A DNA stretch of 52,102 nucleotides from contig MNUT01000002.1 of the NCBI GenBank assembly GCA_001871165.1, forward strand, positions 1-52,102. The letters run 5' to 3'. The position numbers were made by a program, and so were the translations under genes. The notes beneath the pieces are model-generated. The model did not search any database. It was not told where the DNA came from and saw only the letters and a list, made by a program, of their open reading frames with translations. Below, one piece after another: positions 13,499-45,753 of this stretch (position 1 is its first letter; every line of letters begins with the position of its first letter). This DNA comes from Candidatus Falkowbacteria bacterium CG1_02_37_21. Its GTDB lineage: Bacteria > Patescibacteriota > Patescibacteriia > Patescibacteriales > UBA12465.

Positions 13499-13550
13499 TT
13501 GTAAACACTGGGAGTTATAAATTTATAAATACCCTATACGGAGCGGGTAA

Positions 13551-13704
13551 CGGGAATTTCGCCCTCGCCGGCCGCCGGAATTGCGGCCGGCTCACTTGTC
13601 CTGGGTCAGCGCTAAGCATCCCCCGGATGCTTAGCGACGCTCGCCCGCTCGTTCCGGCTTCCGCCGTTCCCTCGCGTCTCGCTTCTGACCTGTTCGATTC
13701 CCGT
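13551..13704 (-). ncRNA. candidate structured RNA inside element A
   Basis: Stems covary with element B; GGAA tetraloop on minus strand; GC-rich in an AT-rich genome. Confidence 0.55.
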
Positions 13705-13709
13705 AAACT

Positions 13710-13756
13710 AACACAGCAAAAATAAAAACACAGGATAAAATCCTGTGTTTTTATTT
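13710..13756. terminator. 17-bp perfect palindrome, probable bidirectional terminator
   Basis: AAATAAAAACACAGGAT-AAA-ATCCTGTGTTTTTATTT. Confidence 0.7.
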
Positions 13757-13976
13757 GGAGCGGGTAACGGGAATCGAAAGGATAGGAACTATTTTTATAA
13801 TTTATTAAATAGTAGATAAATTTCTTTAATGTTAGAAATTTTTTCACATTTTCTAAGTTATCAGTTTTTATCTGAAATAATGGCTATTTACCACCTTTAC
13901 GTCACAATAGCGTCACACTTTATTTGTGAGGCGACAATATAGGAAGGGTGGTAGTAGTCATTCCTAAACTCATAGT

Positions 13977-14894
13977 TTAAATAATATAATTTAATATTCC
14001 CTTTTCAATCATTTCTAAACTAAAAATATAATCATTATGATTAAAGGCCTCTCTTAACGGCCTCGACGTTGATTTCCATCCGTTACCATCAGTAATCCAA
14101 ACAAATTTATATTGGCCATTTAAAACATTAAATAAATCCCTGTATTCACCGGCCGTTGATTTTAACTTTGAACCGCCACCACCATAAAAATTTGTTTCAA
14201 AAATTACTATATCTTTACCGGTGTTTATAACATAATCATAACGTCTAGAAGATTTATCAACCGGCACATCAAAACCCCATTCACTTTTTATTTTTTCCGA
14301 AGTTGCTTCTTTCAAATATTTAAAACCTTTAGTTTTACAAATATCGGCTATAAAAAAGCCGACAATATCTTCCATGGAATGGCCACCTCTATTTTTACGG
14401 CCGTTGCTATCAAGACCGGCCTCTACGCCAATCATATAATCAACCAGATTTTTAATTTTTTGGGAAATGATTAAATCTTTAAGGCCAGTTTCTTTTACAA
14501 ATAATAAATACTTATCAATATCTTTATCGGTTACCGCCTCTTTAGAAAAATCATAATCCTCATAAACTAGCTTTTTCTTTTTATAATCAACTAGAATTTT
14601 AAATTGATTTGTATTACCACCATCACGAACGACTAAAGCCGGAATAACTTTGATAATTTCTGGATTTTGTTTAACTAAAAACTTAAATTCTTTATCAAAA
14701 TCATCTTTGCCAATTAAATAATTAAGATTATTTAAAGCAATTTCTATTTTTCTGGTGTTTGTAAAAACTTTTTCCCAATTTACGAAATAAGACCAAAGCA
14801 TATTGCTTGGCTTGAGATTATTTAAAAAATAATCGAATACCTCGTCCTCGTTTTTACATCCCAAAACTTCATTATAAAATTTAAGAAATTTCAT
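13977..14894 (-). CDS. DpnII/MboI-like type II restriction endonuclease (GATC predicted)
   Basis: KNRGGHSMEDIVGFFIADIC; YDYVINTGKDIVIFETNFYGGGGSKLKSTAGEY; adjacent to MTase. Confidence 0.88.
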   Translation of the reverse strand: MKFLKFYNEVLGCKNEDEVFDYFLNNLKPSNMLWSYFVNWEKVFTNTRKIEIALNNLNYLIGKDDFDKEFKFLVKQNPEIIKVIPALVVRDGGNTNQFKILVDYKKKKLVYEDYDFSKEAVTDKDIDKYLLFVKETGLKDLIISQKIKNLVDYMIGVEAGLDSNGRKNRGGHSMEDIVGFFIADICKTKGFKYLKEATSEKIKSEWGFDVPVDKSSRRYDYVINTGKDIVIFETNFYGGGGSKLKSTAGEYRDLFNVLNGQYKFVWITDGNGWKSTSRPLREAFNHNDYIFSLEMIEKGILNYII

Positions 14895-14898
14895 AAAT

Positions 14899-15759
14899 TT
14901 ACTTAATTAAATCCTTATATCTCTTAACTGACAATTCTAAATAATTTTTTTCTAAATCAATACCAATAAATTTTCTATCGTTAAGAGCGCAGGCTAAACC
15001 AGTCGTTGAAGAACCCGTAAATGGGTCGATGACTAAATCACCTTTGTTGGTACTAGCCATAACAATACGAACCAATAGATCTATTGGCTTTTGTGTCGGG
15101 TGCTTACCAAACTTCTTTTCGGTAGGTTTCGGCGTCCCCATAGACCAAACACTGCGCATTTGCAGATTTGGCTTTTTTAAAAAGTCTTCTGGCCAATTAC
15201 CATTTTTCATTAAGTCATAATTAAACTTATGTTTAGTGGTTATTGGTTTTCCGGTTTTAGGATGGACTAATTCTTTTCTCGCCCAGATCAAAGTTTCATG
15301 ACTGGCCGTAAAAAAGCGACAGCTTAAATTTGGTGAAGCATTGGGTTTAAACCAGGCAATATCGTTTAAGATGTGAAACTTGCTAACTTGGAGAGCGAAA
15401 CCGCATTGATAGATAGAGTGATAGGTGCCGGAAATCCAAATTGTGCCTCCTGGCTTTAATACTCTATGGCAAGCCTTAATCCAGGCTAATTGAAACTCAA
15501 AGTCTTTCTTTAGACCATTACTGACGTCCCATTCGCCTTTATTAACGCTAACCATCCGCCCAGCGTGAACGGAAAAACCACCATTAGATAATAAATAAGG
15601 TGGATCAGCGAATATCATATCAACCGAGTTCTCTGGCAAAGTAGCTAAAAATTCCAAGCTATTGGCCTGGTACAATTTAAAGTCTTTATCTTTAAAAAAT
15701 GGATCTAACATTTTTTTGCTTTTTTTCTTAGTTTTTATAGCCTTTTTTGAGGTAGTCAT
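14899..15759 (-). CDS. site-specific DNA-methyltransferase (adenine), DpnA-like; start may be internal at ~15711
   Basis: MIFADPPYLLSNGG (DPPY), VIDPFTGSSTTGLACALNDRKFIGIDLE. Confidence 0.92.
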   Translation of the reverse strand: MTTSKKAIKTKKKSKKMLDPFFKDKDFKLYQANSLEFLATLPENSVDMIFADPPYLLSNGGFSVHAGRMVSVNKGEWDVSNGLKKDFEFQLAWIKACHRVLKPGGTIWISGTYHSIYQCGFALQVSKFHILNDIAWFKPNASPNLSCRFFTASHETLIWARKELVHPKTGKPITTKHKFNYDLMKNGNWPEDFLKKPNLQMRSVWSMGTPKPTEKKFGKHPTQKPIDLLVRIVMASTNKGDLVIDPFTGSSTTGLACALNDRKFIGIDLEKNYLELSVKRYKDLIK

Positions 15760-15894
15760 ATTATAGCAAATTGGATATGAAGAAAAGATAAAGTCCTATT
15801 CTCTGGCCTAATTTTACGATTTTTTTAGCCAAAAGTCAAAATAATAAAGGGGGCTATTAAACCCCCTTTAGTACCGAACTGTCAAAAACCAACC

Positions 15895-16200
15895 CTATTT
15901 AGTTATGGGCAAATTTAGGGGGCATTGATTTAGTGAAAGTAAGTTATTATTCCAGTCACCATCACTATACGTTCTAAGAAATGGATATCTTCCATCGTTT
16001 GGACGCACAACGCCGACATCAGACCTTTTATTATTTATTGGGTCTAATACATAAAAAGTGTTAGTTTTTTCGTCAATGCTTTTTATTACGGCTTCACGAG
16101 TCCACATCCAATTATTACTGGGATTCCCCACGTGAGTAATATGTTCGTGTGGACTGTTTCTATCAGGTTTTCTAATACAAGTAATTTGGCAATCTGCCAT
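15895..16200 (-). CDS. DUF3892-like protein
   Basis: HITHVGNPSNNWMWTREAVIKSI...FYVLDP...YPFLRTYSDGDWNNNLLSL. Confidence 0.7.
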   Translation of the reverse strand: MADCQITCIRKPDRNSPHEHITHVGNPSNNWMWTREAVIKSIDEKTNTFYVLDPINNKRSDVGVVRPNDGRYPFLRTYSDGDWNNNLLSLNQCPLNLPITK

Positions 16201-16225
16201 ATATTTTTAAATTAATTTATTAAAT

Positions 16226-16317
16226 TTGCTAAGATCTGAAAAACCTGTTATACTTTTTTTGCAATGAAGTAAATTAGGAAAAACACGTCATCTTAACTGG
16301 TGCTACGTGTTTTTTTG
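16226..16317 (+). ncRNA. candidate small RNA 1 (promoter TTGCTA-N17-TATACT; ends in hairpin + T7)
   Basis: AACACGT...ACGTGTTTTTTT. Confidence 0.35.
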
Positions 16318-16347
16318 ATCATAGAATTTTAGTATCATATTGATATG

Positions 16348-16481
16348 TTGACTTAATTAATTAAAACTATTAATATTGAATTAACAAAAAGCCATATAAA
16401 AAATTAGGATTTTCCTGATTTCTTGGCTTTCTGGCGAAAAGTAGACCTTATTGCTTTCCACGGCGCAAGGTCTATTTTTTT
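16348..16481 (+). ncRNA. candidate small RNA 2 (promoter TTGACT-N17-TAATAT; two hairpins + T7)
   Basis: AAGCC...GGCTT hairpin, then AGACCTT...AAGGTCT-ATTTTTTT. Confidence 0.45.
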
Positions 16482-16857
16482 ATTTAGTTACCTCTTTTAG
16501 ATCAATAACGTACATTTTTTCTCCATTATTATCAATTTCTTTAGGTGTATACCGTCCTACGTAATTCAAAAAATCAAAATTGTATTTTCCCCAAAATGAG
16601 TTAGACTTAAAATAACCACCCACACCCGAATTTCTTAGTTTTGCAGTTGCTGGTTCTGACGTTTTAAAAAATTTAAAACCAATCGCCAAATGTTCTCTAT
16701 CAAAAAATATCTTAAGAAAATGATAATCCGATAGATTATATTTATTCATAAACCCCGAACTAAATCCGAAGCCACCGTTTTGCCCAATACTAATTCGTGG
16801 GGCAAACTTGCCCTTATAATCAGTAAATTCATCAAAATTGTAATTATTTTCTTCCAT
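16480..16857 (-). CDS. hypothetical protein
   Basis: 125-aa ORF, plausible composition. Confidence 0.6.
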   Translation of the reverse strand: MEENNYNFDEFTDYKGKFAPRISIGQNGGFGFSSGFMNKYNLSDYHFLKIFFDREHLAIGFKFFKTSEPATAKLRNSGVGGYFKSNSFWGKYNFDFLNYVGRYTPKEIDNNGEKMYVIDLKEVTK

Positions 16858-17138
16858 ATAGTTTGACTTAATAATATAAATAATTGAATTATAGACATCC
16901 AGTAAGGTACTGAGATAAGTTTAGCAAATTGAAATTGTTTTGTCAAGATAGTAATAGTAAATGGTTAAGTAAAATGAACTGTCGCTAACATTAAACAAAA
17001 ATAAGCATTAATTTAAATAATAGTTGATAACTTGTTAATAACTAAATTGAACAGATAAGAATATTATAATACAATAAAGTAAACAACTAGCTATTATTAA
17101 TGTTGAGATTTTGATAACTAAAGTGATAAAATGCTAAC

Positions 17139-18197
17139 ATGACTGAAAAAGCCAAACAACTCAAAAAGAACCTGGATGTCATAATTGATGAATTTACTGA
17201 CGAATACTATAAGGTTTTATTTTCCCCAAAAAAGATGAAAGTAGGAAATAAGCTATCTATATCCTATGAGCTTCCTCGGCTTTTTGTAATTATTAAAAAA
17301 TACATAAGAGAAATTGAATCTAGCAGAATTTTGGACGGCTTTATGAAAGTCCTAAGACAAGAAGTAAAAGCAAATGATCATGACGGCTCACTATTCGGTG
17401 AAAATTTAAATAAAATAAAAAATAACAAAACAAAATCTTATAACTGGGCTTACTATTCTCTTTTTAAAGCAATGCTAGGAGAAGCAAGTGTTCTTGCGTC
17501 ATCTATGCAAAAAATATTAAAAACGGCTGATGTTAATTCTGCCAAGAAAATGCTAGAAAATACGCAAAAACAAATAGAAGAAATAAAGAACATGGAAGAA
17601 GAAATAATAAAACTGAACCTAGATACTATATTAAGGCCAAAAATATATAAAAAATTTCTTAAAGATTTTCATAAAAGCATTATTTCCTGGGTGAATGCCT
17701 ATATTATGACTTCTGAATTTATAGATGATGAAGAAACAATAACCAAAGAACCTTTAACTGATAAATGGGAAGATGTGGGAATAATATTTAATGATGATAT
17801 AAATATAAAATTAGTAATAGACAACAAAGAGGAAAATTCTGATTACGAAAAATTAGGATTTGCTGACACTAGACGTAATTTATTTAAAAAAGCTGTATAT
17901 GTTAAAAGTTGGAATATTCTAATGCTATTTTCTATTAGAAATGGAGTAATAAAAATGAGTGATTTCGCGGGAAACAAAAACAAAAAAGAACTATTTAAAA
18001 AAGACCGGCAAGACTTATCAAAAAGGCTTAAGCGTTATTTCGGGCTAGCAGACGATCCAATAGTCTATGAACCGGATGGCGAAAGATATCGAATCAGAAT
18101 AAAATTAACCCCATCGCCAGATTTTAGAGATTCCTACCTTGATCAAAAAAAGAAGATATCTGAATATAACAAAAAGGATTTTCTAGGAGATTACTAA
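17139..18197 (+). CDS. hypothetical element-encoded protein (possible C-terminal winged-helix-like region)
   Basis: 352-aa ORF; no family recognised. Confidence 0.7.
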   Translation: MTEKAKQLKKNLDVIIDEFTDEYYKVLFSPKKMKVGNKLSISYELPRLFVIIKKYIREIESSRILDGFMKVLRQEVKANDHDGSLFGENLNKIKNNKTKSYNWAYYSLFKAMLGEASVLASSMQKILKTADVNSAKKMLENTQKQIEEIKNMEEEIIKLNLDTILRPKIYKKFLKDFHKSIISWVNAYIMTSEFIDDEETITKEPLTDKWEDVGIIFNDDINIKLVIDNKEENSDYEKLGFADTRRNLFKKAVYVKSWNILMLFSIRNGVIKMSDFAGNKNKKELFKKDRQDLSKRLKRYFGLADDPIVYEPDGERYRIRIKLTPSPDFRDSYLDQKKKISEYNKKDFLGDY

Positions 18198-18229
18198 AGA
18201 AATTTCGTCGCTATTTCCCTGGCAATTTA

Positions 18230-18262
18230 ATCCTCTAACTTACCTAAAGTTAGGGGATTTTT
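18230..18262 (+). terminator. intrinsic terminator
   Basis: CCTCTAACTT-acct-AAAGTTAGGGG-ATTTTTTT. Confidence 0.65.
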
Positions 18263-18404
18263 TTATTGCCTAAGAAATTTCGTCCATATAGGTTAGGAGA
18301 CAATCAAAAAGGTCGAGCTCCTCACTAATTCTTAATTCTACTCATATGCTTTTTCGTCAAAAATTATTCCCAATAAACAAACGGTCTAGCGACTACTTAA
18401 TTCT

Positions 18405-18481
18405 TTGCCCGCCTTTCTGTTTTTTTCTTTTTCGGCGGCTACCCCGTGGGGGAGCCGAAAAAGAAAAACAGAGGCGGCAAG
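18405..18481. repeat. long imperfect inverted repeat upstream of rep, candidate replication origin
   Basis: GCCCGCCTTTCTGTTTTTTTCTTTTTCGGCGGCTACCCC / GGGGGAGCCGAAAAAGAAAAACAGAGGCGGCAAG. Confidence 0.65.
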
Positions 18482-18540
18482 ATATGCAACGCTTCATACC
18501 TGCTTATTAACTTGATTATATGCACACTTAAGAACACATC

Positions 18541-18760
18541 TATGTTTTACACTCCAAAACAAATATTCAAAGACCATGATTATCATTCCTGGCTTAAGGA
18601 ACGAATCCAAAATCTAGAGACGGCTATTAGCGAAAATATGCCCTGTGATAGCACCGATGACATGGAACTTTTGAAAAGAAAATTAGCCTCATACCGACAA
18701 GTCGAGGCTGATTTAGCCAAACAATATGGAATACAAAACGAAATGGATAGTAACCGGTGA
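18541..18760 (+). CDS. small hypothetical protein (start likely MFYTPKQ, not the GTG at 18446)
   Basis: Overlaps rep start; the upstream part of the ORF lies in the inverted repeat. Confidence 0.5.
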
Positions 18761-19418
18761 CCAGGTTGAAGTTTATAAAAATTCAGTCGGGATTAGGATT
18801 GGCAAACGCAAACATAAAAAGAAAAAGACGATTAAAAAAATAGTTAAAACTATCTCTAAAAAATTAAACGAATTTTCCGTTTACCGCACACGCCGAGCCA
18901 TTAAATGGCGCATTAATTCTAATCCCGATATGAATAAATTTTTAACCCTAACTTTTGCCGAAAATCTGACGGATCTCAAAAGTTGTAATGAAAAATTTAA
19001 AGCCTTTATTAGAAAATTAAAAACGATTAAAGAGAATTTGAAATATTTAGTCGTCCCGGAATTTCAGAAACGTGGTGCCGTTCATTATCACGCCTTGCTC
19101 AATCTTGACTACATCGACCAAAAACAATTAGCGGATTTATGGGGTCATGGATTTATTAAGATTAAAAATATTAAAGACGGAATTAATATGGGTTTATATG
19201 TTTCAAAATATATCGGCAAGGATTTAGAGGATGAACGATACTTCAATAACAAAAAATACTTCTGTTCTCGCAACTTAGACAAACCTATGATTTTTTATTC
19301 ACGAGATGAAATTGATAATTTTTTACAGCTTAATTCTTTGACCCCGACTTACGAAAAAACGTTTCAAAGCTATTATGGCTTGATAAATTATCAACTTTTC
19401 AAATTAGACAAAAAATAA
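18726..19418 (+). CDS. HUH-superfamily replication initiator (rolling-circle Rep, phage-type)
   Basis: FLTLTF (motif 1), PEFQKRGAVHYHALLNL (HUH motif), YVSKYIGKD (YxxxY motif). Confidence 0.82.
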   Translation: MEYKTKWIVTGDQVEVYKNSVGIRIGKRKHKKKKTIKKIVKTISKKLNEFSVYRTRRAIKWRINSNPDMNKFLTLTFAENLTDLKSCNEKFKAFIRKLKTIKENLKYLVVPEFQKRGAVHYHALLNLDYIDQKQLADLWGHGFIKIKNIKDGINMGLYVSKYIGKDLEDERYFNNKKYFCSRNLDKPMIFYSRDEIDNFLQLNSLTPTYEKTFQSYYGLINYQLFKLDKK

Positions 19419-19492
19419 AATTGGTAATAGAGTAATACTGTGACTGGCGTAATCCCGTTTTACGTTCCTGTATTGCTCTTTAATAACTTAAT

Positions 19493-19690
19493 ATGTCAAT
19501 TGACCTAACTACAATTGAATTTCTAACTACTGAGCAATTAGCAGGTCTATTAAATATTTCTAAAACTTCTATATATCGTCTAATTGGAAATCGTTTAATT
19601 CCTTTCTACAAACTCGGCCACAATATACGCTTCAAAAAAGCTGATGTTTTGGATTACTTAGAAAAAAATTGTCTTAGGCCGATTTCATGA
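19493..19690 (+). CDS. excisionase-family HTH DNA-binding protein
   Basis: EFLTTEQLAGLLNISKTSIYRLIGNRLIPFYKLGHNIRFKKADVLDYLE. Confidence 0.88.
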   Translation: MSIDLTTIEFLTTEQLAGLLNISKTSIYRLIGNRLIPFYKLGHNIRFKKADVLDYLEKNCLRPIS

Positions 19691-19701
19691 TTATATGATT
19701 T

Positions 19702-20871
19702 ATGAGTATCTATAAACGAAAAAATAAATGGTGGGTAGACTTTAGCTTTCAAAATAAACGCTATCGTTTCTGTAGTCCGGAAAATTCCGCTAGTGGTGCT
19801 AGAGCTTATGAGGGATTATTAAGACAAGGCCTATTAAAAGGAGAAAATATTTCTACCAAAATAGAGCCCTGTCCAGTTTTTTCAGCTTTCGCCGAAAAAT
19901 GGTTTATCAATTATGTTAAATCAAATAATAAGTTCTCTGAGTACTGCAATAAACAAAGCGTTTATAAAGTCCACCTTGAACCATTTTTTGGTAAATTAAG
20001 TCTTGATCAAATTACAGCTTATAAGATAGAAGAATTTAAGGCATTAAAGACCCAGTCTACTCTTGCCCCTAAAACTATCAATAAGATGCTCTCAACCCTC
20101 AGGAAAGCCTTAAATACGGCAGAGGAGTGGGGTTTACTAGTTTCTGTGCCCAAAATTAAGCTTCTAAAAGTACCACCTCAAAAATTTGATTATCTTTTAC
20201 CAGAAGAAGAAGACTTTCTACTAGAAAACACCGAAGGCATATGGCACAATATGATTCTATTAGCTCTTAAGACCGGATTAAGATTTGGCGAGATAATTGC
20301 TTTAAACTGGGAAGACATTGATTTCTCAAATAAACTCCTAACCGTTCGCCATTCCATTGTTCGAGGAATAATGGGAAGTCCAAAAAGTAACAAGATTAGA
20401 TATATTCCAATGACTGATTCTTTATTGGAAATGCTTTGGAATAAATCAAAAAATGAAGATTATATTTTTACTCTAGGAAACAATAAACCAATGAAGCAAA
20501 TTTATTGTTTAAAAAATATGACTCGCATTTGTAAGAAATTAAATATACGCAAAATAGGTTGGCACGTTTTACGCCATACTTTTGCTTCACGCCTAGCAAA
20601 CAACGGAGTTTCTATGAAAGTTATTCAAGAACTTTTAGGCCACTCCGATATTACCACGACAATGCGCTATGCTCATTTGTCGCCGATCACTCTTCGAGAA
20701 TCTATACGCACTTTAGATAATCGAAAAGCCATTGAATTAGAGATATGTCACAAAAATGTCACAAATGTCACAATCACTAATTTAAAAGAGACGGATTTAG
20801 CTCCGGTTAAATCTCAAATTTTCCCCGAAGATAAACAAAAACAGACATCTCTGTCTGTTAATGTTTTGTGA
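19702..20871 (+). CDS. tyrosine-type recombinase/integrase
   Basis: TGLRFGEIIALNWEDID, WHVLRHTFASRLANNGVSMKVIQELLGHSDITTTMRYAH. Confidence 0.95.
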   Translation: MSIYKRKNKWWVDFSFQNKRYRFCSPENSASGARAYEGLLRQGLLKGENISTKIEPCPVFSAFAEKWFINYVKSNNKFSEYCNKQSVYKVHLEPFFGKLSLDQITAYKIEEFKALKTQSTLAPKTINKMLSTLRKALNTAEEWGLLVSVPKIKLLKVPPQKFDYLLPEEEDFLLENTEGIWHNMILLALKTGLRFGEIIALNWEDIDFSNKLLTVRHSIVRGIMGSPKSNKIRYIPMTDSLLEMLWNKSKNEDYIFTLGNNKPMKQIYCLKNMTRICKKLNIRKIGWHVLRHTFASRLANNGVSMKVIQELLGHSDITTTMRYAHLSPITLRESIRTLDNRKAIELEICHKNVTNVTITNLKETDLAPVKSQIFPEDKQKQTSLSVNVL

Positions 20872-20942
20872 GCGGGTAACGGGAATCGAACCCGTCTCTT
20901 GAACTTGGCAAGCTCACATAATAACCACTATACGATACCCGC
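20871..20942 (-). tRNA. tRNA-Gly (GCC)
   Basis: GCGGGTATCGTATAGTGGTTATTATGTGAGCTTGCCAAGTTCAAGAGACGGGTTCGATTCCCGTTACCCGCT. Confidence 0.95.
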
Positions 20943-45178: not shown

Positions 45179-45468
45179 AGTATAATGGACAGGAACGGGA
45201 AAGTCAACAATAATTAGCACTTATGGACGATTAAGAAACCCTAATAGAATACAAGGATAAATATCAGCTCAAATGGAGGAAATTTTTATGGACAAATTAG
45301 CCTATCCAAACCATCATTCCTTCACCGATCATCAGAGGCTTAATGCAGGCCGAGGACATGGTCTTTACCAAGAAATACAAAAATCCCAACAAATTAATTA
45401 AGCTTTGGATTAGAATTGAAGTCAATCAACCGAACTTGGTTATATTAGATACCGTTTGGGGTGCCTAT

Positions 45469-45623
45469 CGGGAATTAGCGCGCTCAACCGCCGCCAGAAT
45501 TGCGGCGGTCTCGCTTGTCCAGGGTTGGCGTCCGATATGCCACCCGGCATATCGTCCGACGCTCTCCTTTTCGCTATTTCTTCCGAAATAGCTCAAGACT
45601 CGCTGCCAACCTGTCCGATTCCC
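45469..45623 (-). ncRNA. candidate structured RNA inside element B
   Basis: Same ordered helices and loops as element A with compensatory stem changes. Confidence 0.55.
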
Positions 45624-45637
45624 CGCGACTACGTCGC

Positions 45638-45680
45638 TATAATAAAAATAATCCAGAAAATTCTGGATTATTTTTATTAT
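45638..45680. terminator. 20-bp perfect palindrome downstream of tRNA-His
   Basis: ATAATAAAAATAATCCAGAA-AA-TTCTGGATTATTTTTATTAT. Confidence 0.7.
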
Positions 45681-45681
45681 G

Positions 45682-45753
45682 GGTGCCTATCGGGAATCGG
45701 ACCCGAAATAACAGGACCACAACCTGCTGTGTTACCACTACACCATAGGCACC
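45682..45753 (-). tRNA. tRNA-His (GTG)
   Basis: G-1/C73 pair; anticodon loop TTGTGGT; T-arm CGGGTCCGATTCCCG. Confidence 0.93.

Follow-up and report, generated by a model that had tools for sequence, protein, structure and literature searches.

In CTXphi, two inverted dif-like sites approximately 90 bp apart form a 150-nt forked hairpin, which is recombined by XerC (PMC3089051). The attC sites of integrons are folded single strands and are recombined with a strong strand preference (PMC8946536). Islands at tRNA genes follow the same repeat logic as the element described here and carry an integrase (PMC4383910). This element is a fold of about 150 nt that is found as copies A and B on the minus strand of a 52,102-nt stretch of contig MNUT01000002.1 from Candidatus Falkowbacteria bacterium CG1_02_37_21 (the window; its genome is termed G000). 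Our reading, with moderate confidence, is that a tRNA-anchored, integron-like mobile cassette system uses the fold as its attachment site, each copy being a cassette or a cassette end.

The original prediction placed four helices on the minus strand of copies B and A, and a check of the sequence finds them at those positions. The outermost helix, GGGAAT/ATTCCC (P1), encloses the fold and was absent from that prediction. The parts of the fold are as follows:

45471..45623, minus strand: structured core of copy B (P1–P6), 163 bits to model R1
45605-45611 with 45523-45529, minus strand: P2 helix, copy B
45573-45592, minus strand: GGAA hairpin, copy B
45546-45554 with 45533-45541, minus strand: CGATATGCC/GGCATATCG hairpin, copy B
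45502-45508 with 45488-45494, minus strand: CCGCCGC/GCGGCGG helix, copy B
13552..13702, minus strand: structured core of copy A, 156 bits to model R1

Copy B is more stable than shuffled sequences both as RNA (z -4.8) and as DNA (z -5.3), and copy A has a z of -3.2 as RNA.

The covariation that had been proposed from copies A and B is confirmed. Among four copies in G000, 24 of the 41 base pairs display compensatory changes. A covariance model made from these four copies was then used for genome searches, and it has nine matches in G000. An alignment of 52 distinct copies agrees, with 38 of the 41 pairs altered on both sides. Standard pairs form in 92.0% of pair cells, compared with 67.3% in column shuffles and 33-40% with slid partners, and there are 493 double-change cells versus 137 in shuffles. 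The proposed conservation of the loops stands only in part: the GGAA tetraloop occurs but not in every copy, and AGCA, ATTTCG and others are also found.

Mismatches in the 25 well-paired columns outside P1 (2408 cells) consist of 57 G.T and 18 A.C, and 75% of unpaired positions are purines on the tRNA-sense strand. These two biases show that the folded strand is the tRNA-sense strand, which is the polarity first proposed. Of the "functional RNA" that was also proposed, the conserved fold and its polarity are supported and the RNA function is not. The unit is a mobile insertion with direct repeats of the tRNA 3' end.

The model finds the fold in 29 of 60 relatives. It is also present in 12 of 384 genomes sampled across the phylum, in several classes and with up to seven copies per genome; this count is a lower bound because few candidates were scored per genome. 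At least 109 distinct copies are found in Patescibacteria (Falkowbacteria and other classes), and the named records with exact-pattern matches include several Candidatus Falkowbacteria.

Sixty-four of the 109 distinct copies lie behind an intact tRNA gene on the same strand, typically 45-66 nt from it, and 21 tRNA species act as hosts. None is inverted. Downstream of the fold is a direct repeat of the host tRNA that extends from A58 to the 3' end. Of 61 tRNA-adjacent copies, 59 have a terminator-like hairpin between the tRNA and the fold in the sense direction, where it excludes read-through from the tRNA into the fold, and 54 have one in antisense. These tRNA 3'-end repeats and the terminator, together with the 11-nt guide-like segment described below, are features that the original prediction overlooked. 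In the window they are positioned as follows, with a small hairpin (P0) that lies between terminator and fold in copy B:

45681..45752, minus strand: tRNA-His(gtg), host of copy B (ARAGORN, sequence); its left direct repeat, 45681-45697, runs from A58 to the 3' end
45639..45680, minus strand: bidirectional intrinsic-terminator-like hairpin, copy B (sequence)
45625..45637, minus strand: P0 mini-hairpin GCGAC-GTA-GTCGC with a GNA triloop, copy B
45459..45475, minus strand: right direct repeat of the tRNA-His 3' end, copy B (ATTCCCGATAGGCACCC), 205 nt past the tRNA
20870..20942, minus strand: tRNA-Gly(gcc), host of copy A and of an island (ARAGORN)
13720..13756, minus strand: terminator-like hairpin, copy A (sequence, inverted repeat)
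13541..13557, minus strand: right direct repeat, copy A; the sequence downstream abuts tRNA-Gly in relative G011 (empty site)

In its first 11 nt the fold reproduces the reverse complement of the T-loop region of the host tRNA (positions 53-63):

45613..45623, minus strand: guide-like segment of copy B, GGGAATCGGAC, the reverse complement of tRNA-His 53-63 (GTCCGATTCCC)
13692..13702, minus strand: guide-like segment of copy A, GGGAATCGAAC, the complement of tRNA-Gly 53-63

This guide crosses the insertion point 57|58 and follows tRNA-specific bases on both sides of it. The match to its own tRNA is full at 39 of 63 loci and 10 of 11 at 15 of the 63; it ends sharply at tRNA position 52 (2%) and weakens past positions 63-64. 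At position 59 the guide fits its own tRNA in 97% of cases versus 43% by chance, at position 57 in 94% versus 83%, and at position 55 in 95% versus 81% (permutation p<2e-4 for each). The guide bases for tRNA positions 58-63 are able to pair with the right repeat within the fold to form P1 (in copy B, the first 6 nt of the guide), but those for positions 53-57 cannot, because the repeat begins at A58. Positions 55 and 57 are thus outside the direct repeat and the guide match there refers to the target itself. An example is copy B, where tRNA-His has GTCC in place of GTTC and the guide reads GGAC.

A copy at tRNA-Val (locus L022) is 98% identical to copy B over 95 nt. It keeps the His-type GGAC and its P1 part suits tRNA-Val, as would be expected of incomplete retargeting. 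Between window positions 45471-45623 and L022 positions 1501-1665, which belong to different genera, the P2-P5 domain is 98% identical, and the guide, P6, terminator and repeats differ. This pattern may represent exchange between copies by domain.

Comparison with empty sites in relatives identifies the units as insertions with 18-bp repeats, whether or not they carry cargo genes. The left flank at tRNA-Gly in G011 joins the sequence past the right repeat of copy A, with 18 bp shared; as the flanks are contiguous there, the 7.3 kb that include copy A are an insertion in G000. At a tRNA-Ser gene, G002 has a 1.5-kb unit consisting of an EutH gene and the fold, and G013 provides the empty site, also with 18 bp. 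At a tRNA-Gln locus, outer flanks are shared between G002, which has a 0.19-kb unit, and G008, which has 6.2 kb between two identical folds. Several genomes display tandem units, some of them identical, and gene cassettes and arrays bear the fold far from tRNAs. The cargo seen includes EutH, an ABC transporter with MarR, DsbD and cupin, and Fic, CYTH, HAD, NYN and HD proteins. No recombinase was found among the scanned cargo proteins, and solo units are too small to encode any integrase.

Near-identical or identical tandem units are located at contig ends in G000 (L053 5326-5670, L054 103-464), which suggests that longer arrays broke the assembly. A variant site, approximately TTC-N-AA-NNN-CG-TCC with a tRNA-like tail, as though the T-loop were 5 nt longer, is present upstream of the terminator in unrelated cassettes (L048, L030, L032, L051, L052, L058, L151, L197). 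Similar proteins are encoded in or beside the cassettes of separate loci (L051 6199-6774, L052 4530-5150, L058 3771-4358), and two of these match ART-PolyVal (ADP-ribosyltransferase in polyvalent proteins).

The locus of copy A also holds an integrative island (window 13781-20869) upstream of the fold, with a terminal tRNA-Gly repeat that is longer:

19702..20871, plus strand: tyrosine integrase of the 7-kb island, adjoining tRNA-Gly (PF00589, 6.3e-36)
18726..19418, plus strand: rolling-circle-type replication protein of the island (PF23343, 2.9e-21)
13977..15759, minus strand: DpnII restriction endonuclease and adenine methyltransferase, island cargo (PF04556, 1.7e-91; PF01555, 2.8e-54)
13758..13779, minus strand: internal tRNA-Gly 3'-end repeat (TTTCGATTCCCGTTACCCGCTC) at the far end of the island

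The integrase is not an integron integrase (TIGR02249, 65.9 bits versus a cut-off of 265). In relatives the fold sits directly at tRNA-Gly with no island between, and we infer that the fold unit is older and that a classical island entered later between it and tRNA-Gly.

An inserted unit begins with a duplicate of the tRNA 3' end (from A58 on, such that the host tRNA stays intact), continues through the terminator and optional cargo and closes with the 150-nt fold; the original tRNA 3' end, displaced, stands after the fold. In the mechanism that we propose, the tRNA-sense strand, once single-stranded, would fold, and the guide would pair with ATTCCC of the element itself, yielding P1, a stem that ends exactly at the exchange point and mimics the T-arm site of the tRNA. 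A trans-acting recombinase, either a single Xer-like enzyme or a helper integrase, would then exchange the folded strand with the matching tRNA gene, in a manner akin to XerC with the CTXphi forked hairpin and IntI with attC. Insertion, excision and tandem arrays would result from this exchange. A further and more tentative proposal is that of a gene-capture system unlike integrons, in which any tRNA gene might serve as anchor and a replaceable guide of about 11 bases in folded DNA (or RNA) might pick the tRNA, so that changing the guide would retarget the cassette.

With respect to the enzyme, genomes G001, G002, G008, G010 and G016 have one to several copies of the fold and a single tyrosine recombinase, which is Xer-like; these five have no Y1 transposase, IS110 transposase or reverse transcriptase. 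An integron integrase was rejected in the six tested carriers, whose single tyrosine recombinases reach at most ~110 bits to TIGR02249 versus the cut-off of 265. No Y1 HUH transposase (Y1_Tnp) was found in G000, G001, G002, G006, G008 and G016, and no reverse transcriptase in carriers G001, G002, G008, G010, G013 and G016. Among the searched members of the genus and family only G000 has an IS110 DEDD transposase. Y1 transposase, IS110 and reverse transcriptase were accordingly rejected as the shared enzyme, in that many carriers are without them. The IS110-family transposase of G000 is encoded at L238 (contig 21, 19260-19688).

Several observations weigh against a recombinase-driven attachment site of folded DNA. 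No recombinase is linked to the units, in searches that did not cover serine recombinases, and serine recombinases or other enzymes are possible agents. Xer is universal and is present in copy-free genomes too; therefore the single-Xer carriers represent an exclusion of other enzymes and not a proof. The known target of Xer is dif, not a tRNA T-arm. P1, at only ~6 bp, is short for an arm of a tyrosine recombinase site, and the right end of the cargo bears the variant site, for which the model does not account. Some copies at tRNA-His and tRNA-Gly could have kept the guide through ancestry. Only about one third of copies have a recognisable P0, and the main fold has no DNA-specific terminal loops (there are no GNA triloops). 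The argument for DNA versus RNA is indirect, and the strand bias would fit RNA as well.

The case for DNA rests on P0 and on insulation by terminators, since the loops of the main fold do not favour DNA. The loops of P0 are GNA or GNNA in 22 of 30 hairpins with a stem of at least 4 bp, compared with 4.5% of shuffle hairpins. GNA loops are described as conferring extraordinary stability on DNA mini-hairpins (Yoshizawa 1997, as cited in PMC11101458). For the fold, a DNA attachment site is no less likely than an RNA, and in our judgement DNA is the more probable active form.

The alternative that survives best, although we regard it as unlikely, is a transcribed guide RNA: base pairing of its 11-nt segment to the T-loop strand of the tRNA gene would lead an RNA-guided enzyme to insert the cassette, as with IS110 bridge RNAs. 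The guide is sharply bounded and lies across the insertion point, the folded strand is fixed, with purine-rich loops and G.T in excess of A.C, and the GGAA loops are of the GNRA type, all of which would suit such an RNA. However, the terminator is directly upstream in nearly all tRNA-adjacent copies, and no promoter enrichment was seen. IS110 is missing from most carriers and reverse transcriptase from several. Bridge RNAs have split left and right guides, whereas the guide here is one continuous 11-mer.

It is doubtful that the units are mini-elements similar to miniature inverted-repeat transposable elements, i.e., non-autonomous and moved in trans by tRNA-specific island integrases such as that at 19702-20871. 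The fold would then have a different function (as a replication origin or in protein binding), and the T-arm copy in inverted orientation would be an accessory integrase site. Integrase islands do occur at the same tRNA genes, as at copy A, and tRNA islands typically have such direct repeats (PMC4383910). Nevertheless, there are carriers with up to seven copies that have no such integrase, and this explanation leaves both the branched covarying fold and the guide match outside the repeat unaccounted for. Island integrases are usually tRNA-specific, but one core type of fold serves 21 tRNA species. A structured RNA useful to the host, tied to tRNA genes through regulation or processing and in mobile units by chance, is very improbable: orthologous tRNA-Gly(gcc) loci hold a copy in several genera, but the tRNA-His and tRNA-Gly loci are empty in many relatives, so the fold is dispensable, it is insulated by terminators on both sides, and arrays and gene cassettes hold it away from tRNAs.

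The fold has no match to an Rfam family: at the gathering threshold and at E<=10, only tRNA, transfer-messenger RNA (tmRNA) and rRNA reach thresholds. There was no match in phages and plasmids by blastn, or in viral contigs searched with one exact pattern, and searches of open-access papers found no prior account of cassettes at tRNAs in the candidate phyla radiation (CPR) or Patescibacteria. A group I intron was considered, as the junction-spanning guide resembles an internal guide sequence, but the junction lacks a U.G and Rfam gave no hit.

The genomes of Patescibacteria are very small. Cassettes anchored at tRNAs would explain gene gain one at a time in these bacteria, whose tested carriers have no integron integrase. 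Target choice through base pairing with the guide, if it occurs, would make this a compact programmable insertion system with directly testable rules. Should folded single-stranded DNA prove to be the active form, the principle of CTXphi and integrons would extend to tRNA genes. Such cassettes can be sought directly in metagenomes with the covariance model and the guide rule.

The system can be likened to CTXphi, to integrons and to tRNA islands, yet it departs from a defining property of each. As in CTXphi attP(+), inverted copies of the target (~140 nt apart here) fold on one fixed strand into a hairpin of ~150 nt whose stem mimics the target, and the element has no recombinase of its own. 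The targets differ, being the T-arms of many tRNAs and not dif; in addition, the cassettes bear cellular cargo, form arrays and have no phage genes, and their enzyme is a presumed one. As in integrons, cargo genes each end in a folded imperfect palindrome, tandem arrays and gene-less cassettes are found, one strand is favoured and a fixed anchor lies beside. The attC boxes R'' and R' have the consensus RYYYAAC / GTTRRRY, and the ends here are instead GGGAATCGAAC and ATTCCC. Integrons further differ in that the present system has tRNA anchors, a branched covarying fold, 18-bp tRNA repeats in place of GTT and a guide that matches the anchor, with no IntI in tested carriers. As in tRNA and tmRNA islands, entry is precise and at the tRNA 3' end, as the empty sites and their 18-bp repeats show; the element restores the host tRNA and the displaced 3' fragment is at the far end. 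Such islands carry their own integrase, as does the one around copy A, whereas these units of 0.2-6 kb have none in the scanned cargo and have a conserved fold with a target-matched segment. The IS110 bridge RNA is similar in having a target-complementary segment within a structured non-coding stretch, but most carriers here have no transposase, the guide is single and continuous and the repeats are 18 bp. If the Xer route were proven, the system would be more fairly seen as a form of single-stranded integration. The combination of a target-matched segment with many tRNA anchors is accounted for by no known kind of system.
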